A stretch of DNA of 64,000 bases from Thelephora terrestris. Its lineage: Eukaryota; Basidiomycota; Agaricomycetes; Thelephorales; Thelephoraceae. The notes under the pieces were generated by a model that was given only the letters and a program-made list of their open reading frames with translations, did no database searches and had not been told where the DNA came from. Shown here one piece after another: positions 42,425-47,050 of this stretch; position 1 is the stretch's first letter; each line of letters starts with the position of its first letter. The translations under genes were made by a program, and so were the position numbers. The stretch is taken from positions 744,001 to 808,000 of the forward strand of contig WIUZ02000008.1 of assembly GCA_015956445.1 (NCBI GenBank), written 5' to 3'.

Positions 42425-43529
42425 CAATAGCTGCAGCCCAAAAAATATATTAATTCCTGTTAGCAAAGGGAGTGACTTTTATATTTGACCTGGGTTGTCC
42501 TCACAATTATAATTGCAACTTTAACCCAGCAAGAATTATAAATGTAGCCTCCCCTTGCCTGACGTCCCATCCATCGTACTGGGTACTGGCCCATTGCTTC
42601 GGACCCAAGGAATTGATGGGCTGATGGGATATGCCCAGTGCTTCGGGCACATGCTGGTGCCACAACCGTGGGAAATGATTTTCCACGCTCCTGCCCTTTG
42701 TTGCTGACATAGGCTGGTCATGTGACCTACCAAAAGGGGGTAATTTTGATGGCTTATATAAGCAAGTCATGTGACTGAAAAGAGTGGATGTTGATTATAT
42801 AAGCAGGTCATATGACTGACCAAAAAAGGAAAGGTTTGATGGTTTACATAAGCGACTCAAAAATGATTTTGGCATTGAATTTCCTTTTTAGGAAATTTTG
42901 ATGGCTGATATAAGCAGGTCATGTGACTGAAAAAAGTGGGTGTTGCTTATGTAATCAGGTCATGTGACTGACCAAAAAAGGAAAGTTTTGATGGCTTACA
43001 TAAGCGACTCAAAAATAATTTTGACAAAAATTCCCCAAAAGGAAATTTCCTTTTTAGGAAAGACTTTCCAAAAAAGGCAATTTGATGGCGTATGTAAGCA
43101 ACTTGAAAATGCTTTTGGCAAAAATTACCAAAAAAGGAAATTTCCTAAAAAGGAAATTATATGCCAGAAAAATCGGAAAAATGCCAGAAAAATTCTAAAA
43201 AATACAGAAAAAATTCCCACGGGTTTAGAAAGTGCCCAAAATGGTCAATTAATTCCAAAAATATCGAAAAAATGGTTTTTCTGGCTGGATAAATCCGGAA
43301 AAATTCCGAAAAAATTACCAAAAATTCCAGAATATGTATAAATATTTTATAAAAATTAAATTTATTTTTTTTGCCCTTTAAACAGCTCACAATTTTGATA
43401 TTAATGTATTTTCTGCCCCTAAAAATCCAGAAAAATCTCCAAAAATTAATGAAAAATTGAAAATTACATATATATCCATAATCTTTGCTATATCATAAAA
43501 TACAGACCCATTTGTGGTCATAAACTAGC

Positions 43530-44345
43530 CCTAGACCTAAACCTAGTCCTGGACCTAACCTAACCTAACCTGAACCTAAACCTAAACCTGCCCTAAACCT
43601 GCCCTAAACCTAACCTAACCTAACCCTAACCCTAAACCTAAACCTAAACCTAACCTGCCCTAAACATAACCTAACCTAACCTAACCCTGAACCTAAACCT
43701 AACCTAAACCTAAACCTAACCTAAACCTAACCTAAACCTAAACCTAACCTAAACCTAAACATAACCTAAACCTACACCTAACCTAACCTAACCTAACCTA
43801 ACCTAACCTAACCTAACCTAACCTAACCTAACCTAACCTAACCTAACCTAACCTAACCTAACCTAACCTAACCTAACCTAACCTAACCTAACCTAACCTA
43901 ACCTAACCTAACCCTAACCCTAAACCTGAACCTAACCTTGCCTAGTTTGGCCTTATCTTATCTTATCTTATCTTATCTTATTTTGAACCTGCTCTAAACC
44001 TAAACTTGAATCTAAACCTAACCTCAACCTCAACTTACCCTACCCTAACTCAACCTACCCCTAACCTAACCTGCCCTAAACCTAGCCTGCCCTAAACCTA
44101 ACCTAGCACTAAACCTAACCTAGCACAGAACCTAGCCTAGGACCAAACCTACACCTAAACCTAACCTGCCCTAAGCCTAACCCAATTCTAACCTCACCTA
44201 GTCCTAACCCTGACCTGGCCTTGTTTGGCCTTATCTTATTTTATCTCATCTTATCTTATCTTACCTTATCATGTCTTACCTAACCTGACATAGTCCACTC
44301 AACCTAATCCACCACACAGATCACCCAACCTAACCTAACCTAGGG
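43530..44345. repeat. Telomere-like repeat block, left arm of element C: (CCTAA)n and variants
   Basis: Mixed cctaaa, ccctaa and cctaa units, with an uninterrupted pentamer run of about 27 CCTAA units at 43776-43913. It is followed by short cttat (TTATC) runs near 43950-43985 and 44230-44270, and more degenerate units. On the plus strand it is C-rich, as at the left end of a chromosome. Confidence 0.9.
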
Positions 44346-45157
44346 TGGTCCACCTGACCTAGCCTGATGCAACTTGACTTGATCTCATCTAATCAGCTGT
44401 TATCTTATCTAACCTTAATTTAAATACCCTAGCTAACCAACATCTGACTCAACCTCACCTGGCTCACTAGCACATGACTGGGCTATAGGAACACACTATC
44501 AGCTGTACCATCCCATATCCTGTATCCAACTGTTACTCAAGCACAACAACTGTGGTGGACCTACAAGTTAGTGGGCCTACCAGCCCACAGACCCACAACT
44601 GTAAACTGCTCACTCAGTGGAGACACCTGTTATCCAACCTCACCCATGTACCACACCCACCCTGTGTTCTGTGCCAGACCAACCACAACTCAAGTTCAGC
44701 CACCTGGCTGAAACATGTGCTCTCAGGCTTACAAATTCATGGATGTGTAACTGGTAGTCTATATCTATCTGGCTTGCAGGTTCAGCCAGGTGATTAAACT
44801 TGAGTTGTGGTGAAGTTGTGGTCTGGCACAGAACACAGGGTGGGTGTGGTACATGGGTGAGGTTGGATAACAGGTGTCTCCACTGAGTGAGCAGTTTACA
44901 GTTGTGGGTCTGTGGGCTGGTAGGCCCACTAACTTGTAGGTCCACCACAGTTGTTGTGCTTGAGTAACAGTTGGATACAGGATATGGGATGGTACAGCTG
45001 ATAGTGTGTTCCTATAGCCCAGTCATGTGCTAGTGAGCCAGGTGAGGTTGAGTCAGATGTTGGTTAGCTAGGGTATTTAAATTAAGGTTAGATAAGATAA
45101 CAGCTGATTAGATGAGATCAAGTCAAGTTGCATCAGGCTAGGTCAGGTGGACCACCC

Positions 45158-45950
45158 TAGGTTAGGTTAGGTTGGGTGATCTGTGTGGTGGATTAGGTTG
45201 AGTGGACTATGTCAGGTTAGGTAAGACATGATAAGGTAAGATAAGATAAGATGAGATAAAATAAGATAAGGCCAAACAAGGCCAGGTCAGGGTTAGGACT
45301 AGGTGAGGTTAGAATTGGGTTAGGCTTAGGGCAGGTTAGGTTTAGGTGTAGGTTTGGTCCTAGGCTAGGTTCTGTGCTAGGTTAGGTTTAGTGCTAGGTT
45401 AGGTTTAGGGCAGGCTAGGTTTAGGGCAGGTTAGGTTAGGGGTAGGTTGAGTTAGGGTAGGGTAAGTTGAGGTTGAGGTTAGGTTTAGATTCAAGTTTAG
45501 GTTTAGAGCAGGTTCAAAATAAGATAAGATAAGATAAGATAAGATAAGGCCAAACTAGGCAAGGTTAGGTTCAGGTTTAGGGTTAGGGTTAGGTTAGGTT
45601 AGGTTAGGTTAGGTTAGGTTAGGTTAGGTTAGGTTAGGTTAGGTTAGGTTAGGTTAGGTTAGGTTAGGTTAGGTTAGGTTAGGTTAGGTTAGGTTAGGTG
45701 TAGGTTTAGGTTATGTTTAGGTTTAGGTTAGGTTTAGGTTTAGGTTAGGTTTAGGTTAGGTTTAGGTTTAGGTTAGGTTTAGGTTCAGGGTTAGGTTAGG
45801 TTAGGTTATGTTTAGGGCAGGTTAGGTTTAGGTTTAGGTTTAGGGTTAGGGTTAGGTTAGGTTAGGTTTAGGGCAGGTTTAGGGCAGGTTTAGGTTTAGG
45901 TTCAGGTTAGGTTAGGTTAGGTCCAGGACTAGGTTTAGGTCTAGGGCTAG
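45158..45950. repeat. Telomere-like repeat block, right arm of element C: (TTAGG)n and variants
   Basis: Mirror image of the left block: aggtttaggttt, ttaggg and a pure ttagg run of about 22 units at 45587-45698. On the plus strand it is G-rich, as at the right end of a chromosome. The pure run is about five units shorter than its mirror. Confidence 0.9.
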
Positions 45951-47050
45951 TTTATGACCACAAATGGGTCTGTATTTTATGATATAGCAAAGATTATGGA
46001 TATATATGTAATTTTCAATTTTTCATTAATTTTTGGAGATTTTTCTGGATTTTTAGGGGCAGAAAATACATTAATATCAAAATTGTGAGCTGTTTAAAGG
46101 GCAAAAAAAATAAATTTAATTTTTATAAAATATTTATACATATTCTGGAATTTTTGGTAATTTTTTCGGAATTTTTCCGGATTTATCCAGCCAGAAAAAC
46201 CATTTTTTCGATATTTTTGGAATTAATTGACCATTTTGGGCACTTTCTAAACCCGTGGGAATTTTTTCTGTATTTTTTAGAATTTTTCTGGCATTTTTCC
46301 GATTTTTCTGGCATATAATTTCCTTTTTAGGAAATTTCCTTTTTTGGTAATTTTTGCCAAAAGCATTTTCAAGTTGCTTACATACGCCATCAAATTGCCT
46401 TTTTTGGAAAGTCTTTCCTAAAAAGGAAATTTCCTTTTGGGGAATTTTTGTCAAAATTATTTTTGAGTCGCTTATGTAAGCCATCAAAACTTTCCTTTTT
46501 TGGTCAGTCACATGACCTGATTACATAAGCAACACCCACTTTTTTCAGTCACATGACCTGCTTATATCAGCCATCAAAATTTCCTAAAAAGGAAATTCAA
46601 TGCCAAAATCATTTTTGAGTCGCTTATGTAAACCATCAAACCTTTCCTTTTTTGGTCAGTCATATGACCTGCTTATATAATCAACATCCACTCTTTTCAG
46701 TCACATGACTTGCTTATATAAGCCATCAAAATTACCCCCTTTTGGTAGGTCACATGACCAGCCTATGTCAGCAACAAAGGGCAGGAGCGTGGAAAATCAT
46801 TTCCCACGGTTGTGGCACCAGCATGTGCCCGAAGCACTGGGCATATCCCATCAGCCCATCAATTCCTTGGGTCCGAAGCAATGGGCCAGTACCCAGTACG
46901 ATGGATGGGACGTCAGGCAAGGGGAGGCTACATTTATAATTCTTGCTGGGTTAAAGTTGCAATTATAATTGTGAGGACAACCCAGGTCAAATATAAAAGT
47001 CACTCCCTTTGCTAACAGGAATTAATATATTTTTTGGGCTGCAGCTATTG

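Follow-up and report, generated by a model that had tools for sequence, protein, structure and literature searches.

The window, the whole 64,000-nucleotide stretch of DNA analysed from the root-associated fungus Thelephora terrestris, corresponds to C59:744001-808000 in a genome of 40.6 Mb in 60 contigs; a genome of this species has already been published, according to the parts of PMC7550596 available to us. At 42425-47050 it holds a 4.6-kb, non-coding, mirror-image palindrome (Table 1). Two inverted arm pairs, 42425-43888 with 45587-47050 (1464 nt) and 43801-44681 with 44819-45699 (881 nt), are each 100% complementary. Their pairing registers lie 25 nt apart, so the left arm has five CCTAA units more than the right, and this is the sole difference between the arms. 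An exact inverted repeat of 2.2 kb is far beyond chance. The earlier note had described inverse arms of about 2.28 kb around a 66-bp centre; the palindrome itself is confirmed, but the arms measure 2257 nt (left) and 2232 nt (right), and the centre outside exact pairing is 137 bp, with imperfect pairing in part of it. We read CAATAGCTGCAG at both termini, and about 0.47 kb of non-array sequence lies between the telomere-like array and the centre. The repeats do point outward as previously described, C-rich at left and G-rich at right, with CCTAA counted 83 times in the left half and twice in the right, and TTAGG 2 and 78 times, respectively.

Several other features share the window. A 943-bp palindrome at 48854-49796 has CACTGGGGACAAG ends and a 3-bp TCA flank repeat, which we take to resemble a CACTA/EnSpm-type miniature element, and an inverted-repeat element at 55923-56943 has 204-nt arms (98%), CACTGGGGGCA-like ends and tandem GGAAGCTCCGG repeats. 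An open reading frame (ORF) at 29420-30613 carries a Plavaka transposase domain (PF18759, E 9.8e-15), while a gag-like ORF at 51028-51507 is related to a repeat present at at least 150 places and has relatives in soil metagenome-type records. Two gene regions of NACHT + WD40-like type (17046-20474 and 60294-63788), about 77% alike in two stretches, are probably a dispersed duplicate.

Table 1. Features of the palindrome, its surroundings in the window, and the large elements with similar termini. Positions are those of the window unless a contig is given; TSD, target-site duplication.
Feature	Position	Length	Strand	Basis or remark
Left arm, type-1 outer end CAATAGCTGCAG	42425..44681	2257 nt	+	exact inverted pairing
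Right arm, inverted copy of left arm, type-1 end	44819..47050	2232 nt	-	exact inverted pairing
Centre, part of family-wide core	44682..44818		.	core at at least 40 loci on 19 contigs
Telomere-like array, C-rich, CCTAA side	43553..44209		+	repeat units read
Telomere-like array, TTAGG side, G-rich on + strand	45291..45922		-	repeat units read
Terminal stretch akin to left end of C45:2141583-2160764	42425..42577, mirror 46898-47050		+	69%, 158 aligned positions
Subterminal repeats TTGATGGCTTACATAAGC..TCATGTGACTGACC	42742..43146, mirror 46329-46733		+	repeat analysis
Left flank, inverted part of high-copy repeat R, cut at TTGTGAG	41812..42424		-	repeat R comparison
Right flank, repeat R direct, starts AACAGCA	47051..48451		+	does not continue left flank as expected
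Array-free palindromic relative A	34806..37036	2231 bp	.	TSD CTTGTGA; GAGTGAGG alternative centre
Array-free palindromic relative B	57399..59669	2271 bp	.	TSD GTCGCGT; near-identical to A
Large element C45	C45:2141583-2160764	19.2 kb		TSD ATGCTCA; KDZ match re-scored on its own
Large element C23		17.5 kb		TSD GCTCTCA; KDZ hit inside
Large element C19		13.4 kb		TSD TGATAAT; KDZ hit inside
Large element C22		17.6 kb		no TSD; KDZ hit inside

The window palindrome is one member of a dispersed family of foldback-type mobile units. A core query returned 78 matches, which with 40 of 163 candidates scored represent at least 40 loci spread over 19 contigs, and a query of 43700-44500, comprising the left array and part of the inner arm, matched 44 places (40 of 354 candidates scored). 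The outermost 300 bp matched 25 places, with at least 296 bp covered in 14. Comparison of 20 fetched stretches and three further loci revealed that array-bearing copies have most sequence in common inward of ~275-400 bp from the end, and that the outermost 300-600 bp vary by subfamily (among them CAATAGCTGCAG, CAATAGCTGCTG, CATTAGTGG/CAGCTGTGG and CAGTAGTCC). The foldback mobile unit suggested earlier is thus borne out by independent copies with the same telomere-like block and different flanks, and by target-site duplications (TSDs). Two of the fetched loci, L020 (C22:119900-129800) and L021 (C8:926000-935900), display the same palindrome and flanks in opposite orientation, and are either a segmental duplicate or a second haplotype. 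Two candidates for an autonomous partner, both from longer loci with the array, were discarded: the transposase-like gene unit of C56 (10.97 kb) recurs without arms in L053 and L054 and is a nested insert, and the gag-like ORF of L031/L032 lies at at least 150 places (150 of 238 candidates) and is a separate repeat.

Of the 22 loci scored for TSDs, 13 carry one, spanning 7 bp in 12 cases and 8 bp in the other; L020/L021 are taken as one duplicated locus, and L026, L028 and L031 are set aside because their pair of ends was incomplete. A script detected exact 7-bp flank repeats in 10 of the 18 elements whose ends are defined (A, B, L009, L012, L014, L018, L019, L023, L024 and L025); to these are added the 8-bp duplication of L027 and the 7-bp duplications of L017 and the split element L015/L013, both read by eye. 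For L024, the window itself contains an uninterrupted paralogue of the insertion site, a copy of repeat R in which TTGTCGG occurs once (47319). The nine loci with no TSD are the window copy, L010, L011, L016, L020/L021, L022, L032, C56 and C13:551611-559909, the last read at its two ends. Five of the nine have normally paired ends; in the other four, the window copy, L010, L016 and C13:551611-559909, the ends are mismatched. Mismatched copies have a TSD in 0 of 4 cases vs 13 of 18 for the others (probability 0.017, for a grouping made after seeing the data).

The arms of family members have been made identical repeatedly. Both compared arm segments are 100% identical within the element in 8 of the 19 elements scored for both, and an element's own arm is its closest copy in 15/20 cases for the subterminal segment and 11/20 for the core (L020 and L021 were left uncompared with each other). 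Eight of 20 elements have core arms that agree at 85-93%, and in the core tree these arms fall with those of other elements instead of beside each other. Gene conversion or fold-back copying may be the route of this homogenisation.

The telomere-like array is built of mixed units, with TTAGG (344), TTTAGG (229) and TTAGGG (43) among 931 units counted in the right half of each of 16 elements, of which three lack the array. The usual telomere unit in Agaricomycetes is TTAGGG. A search for (TTAGGG)4 returned 45 genome matches, all interior, the one closest to a contig end lying ~53 kb inside C60, and 0 matches for the reversed pattern. No telomere is present at any of the 20 contig ends examined, from 120 in the assembly. 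The C-rich left, G-rich right orientation holds in the array-bearing elements compared, with the split counts of C56 uninformative as its nested insert moves the midpoint.

The array is absent from A and B, which belong to one end subfamily, and from L014, which belongs to the subfamily of the window copy. A and L014 have a common alternative centre (99%) with arm junctions at two different points, and the same centre is found at the position of B (99%, C59:802364-802703). This GAGTGAGGGGGG..CCTCACTC palindromic module (4144-5022 in L014, 35730-36071 in the window) takes the place of the telomere-like core where the array is lacking, and is present at 30 places in the genome. The family has two or more exchangeable centres, and the array with the core is one of them. 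A possible route for the exchange is that a small palindrome would insert in an arm and a new inverted duplication would then form around it. Since array-free relatives carry 7-bp TSDs, and the C45 ends are array-free, the telomere-like block is dispensable for insertion, which runs against the earlier suggestion that the element uses these repeats in its life cycle. The block is widespread in the family, and our best guess is that it is a passenger. That it is functional, recruiting host telomere-repeat binding proteins, telomere-type silencing chromatin or transposase and so giving an advantage that spread the core across several end subfamilies, we consider unlikely.

Four large elements of 13-19 kb have family-type CAATAG..CAGCAG termini, and all four have PF18758 (KDZ) hits inside, with the KDZ transposase known here from these hits. 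Three of the four are flanked by 7-bp TSDs. The genome has 125 KDZ matches in 40.6 Mb, which under an even spread gives ~0.05 per 17 kb, a figure that overstates the case because KDZ hits cluster with other repeats and the real chance is higher. Scanning for the terminal motif gave 129 matches vs 118 for the reversed control, so the motif count alone is no evidence. Among the 100 terminal-motif matches listed, six end pairs were read, and four of these are the large elements. The C13 pair has two type-1 ends (CAATAG) and no TSD, and C3:175235-180960 was not kept as a single element, its ends being unlike and a TSD absent. The left end of C45 aligns with the end of the window palindrome with an E value of 3.5e-10 (Table 1), and the two 2.5-kb ends of C45 contain no telomere-like array and no mutual match beyond the first bases.

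The window copy is probably a recombinant, akin to the chimeric copies of Galileo in Drosophila. It has two type-1 ends, whereas L009, L011, L012 and L014 of its subfamily each pair a CAATAG end with a GAGCAG end, and it has no TSD of its own. Repeat R runs unbroken through the left insertion position in L027, and extends upstream of the right insertion position in L024, L015 and L027; the flanks of the window copy are therefore two R sites, not one, and simple insertion does not give them. R is present at at least 40 places (191 candidates), with family insertions at L024, at L015/L013 and in both halves of the window copy. Other copies are mismatched too: L016 has two type-2 ends, L010 has ends from two subfamilies, and C13 has two CAATAG ends. 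Against a recombinant origin, the two halves need near-identity, or later levelling, to give arms that differ only in array length.

Three other explanations were weighed. The inner block could be a mini-linear replicon, as the earlier note proposed, or a captured chromosome end with its own telomeres, that later came to lie inside foldback arms; the orientation of the array-bearing elements is that of a linear chromosome, and the (TTAGGG)4 matches are mostly minus/plus pairs ~1.6 kb apart. Yet arrays in an inverted repeat necessarily point oppositely, so this pairing adds no evidence, and TTAGGG makes up just 43 of the 931 units. With all (TTAGGG)4 matches interior, the array held in transposon arms of the fetched copies and lacking its own target duplication, and no array at any of the 20 contig ends read, we regard a replicon or captured end as most improbable. 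It is also quite unlikely that the elements are of hAT type (hAT7), even though rust-fungus hAT7 families likewise have 7-bp TSDs in the parts of PMC12730594 consulted: the genome has three hAT dimerisation-domain hits, the only one read (L055) is not surrounded by matching termini, and the large elements whose termini do match enclose KDZ hits.

Alternatively, the window copy could be an otherwise ordinary element made to look perfectly symmetrical by an error of assembly or by template switching. The palindrome is known from the assembly alone, and its 100% identical arms, two type-1 ends and missing TSD are unlike most relatives. A missed-adapter fold, however, would mirror the flanks, and here the flanks differ beyond the termini; as many family palindromes also have their own flanks and TSDs, a simple assembly fold is unlikely. 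Identical arms occur in 8 of 19 elements, and others are 85-93% identical in the core, so polishing has not levelled all. An artefact accordingly seems rather improbable, about as much so as the hAT7 origin.

We consider, with a probability of roughly 0.78, that the palindrome represents a foldback transposon of Kyakuja type (KDZ), full-length and non-autonomous, with ends recognised in trans, and that the window copy is recombinant; the assignment to Kyakuja, as against Zisupton or Dileera, is putative and made from TSDs, termini and KDZ hits. A KDZ transposase from the 13-19 kb elements that share the palindrome's termini would act in trans on those ends, and insertion would create the 7-bp duplication. 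Movement in trans is what the sequences suggest. The arms, made of subterminal repeats, an A/T-rich stretch and the telomere-like array, would surround the common core, with array and core carried along as an exchangeable central block, and gene conversion or fold-back copying would repeatedly restore identity between the arms of single copies. For the window copy, recombination may have joined halves of two insertions in oppositely oriented R copies, which would leave two type-1 ends and no duplication.

In the parts of PMC12730594 consulted, Kyakuja-1_LB and -2_LB of Laccaria are reported to lack TIRs, to end in CA..TG and to make 7-bp TSDs. Our family resembles these Agaricomycete elements in its 7-bp TSDs (12 of 22 loci), in CA..TG termini, which the CAATAG..CTATTG of the window copy fits, and in the KDZ transposase hits of the large elements. 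Those published elements are coding and reported without TIRs, whereas the family described here consists of non-coding, full-length palindromes that are all TIR and carry a telomere-like block. This counts against a Kyakuja type, and there is an exception to the CA termini, in that the type-2 end of the window's subfamily starts GAG, not CAG. We take the palindromes to be a Kyakuja-type non-autonomous derivative, not a canonical member. KDZ transposases, with movement shown in a basidiomycete, are described for KDZ1, KDZ2 and KDZ3 of Cryptococcus neoformans, which, as far as the sections of PMC12810828 seen extend, have TSDs of 8 bp (KDZ1) or 4-8 bp (KDZ2, KDZ3); unlike our family, they are coding elements of ~9-11 kb with TIRs of 139-241 bp and are not palindromes.

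The closest parallel in plan is Galileo, a foldback-like member of the P superfamily in Drosophila, for which the portions of PMC3573991 consulted describe copies with long repetitive TIRs as well as chimeras whose 7-bp flanks do not match. Shared with our family are long, internally repetitive inverted ends, copies consisting of nothing but two TIRs, chimeras flanked by unlike 7-bp sequences, exchange of internal regions, and TIR extension by inverted duplication. Galileo differs in its P-element transposase, its insect host and its TIRs of up to ~1.2 kb (~2.2 kb here), and those portions do not mention a telomere-like array. The view that no described family has such a plan therefore needs qualifying: the foldback plan is known in Galileo, while the literature searched, with most subscription journals outside its scope, yielded no account of a KDZ element that is palindromic or carries a telomere-like array. 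By analogy, the family appears to work like Galileo, with no claim to membership of the P superfamily. Its recombinant copies may mark rearrangement breakpoints, and interior TTAGGG-like arrays can spread by transposon, so that an interstitial array is not always an old chromosome end or fusion point. What is new is that a KDZ lineage has this foldback plan and that its telomere-like core can be swapped. A plan like that of Galileo now extends to fungal KDZ elements, with interchangeable centres and repeated arm homogenisation seen in one genome.
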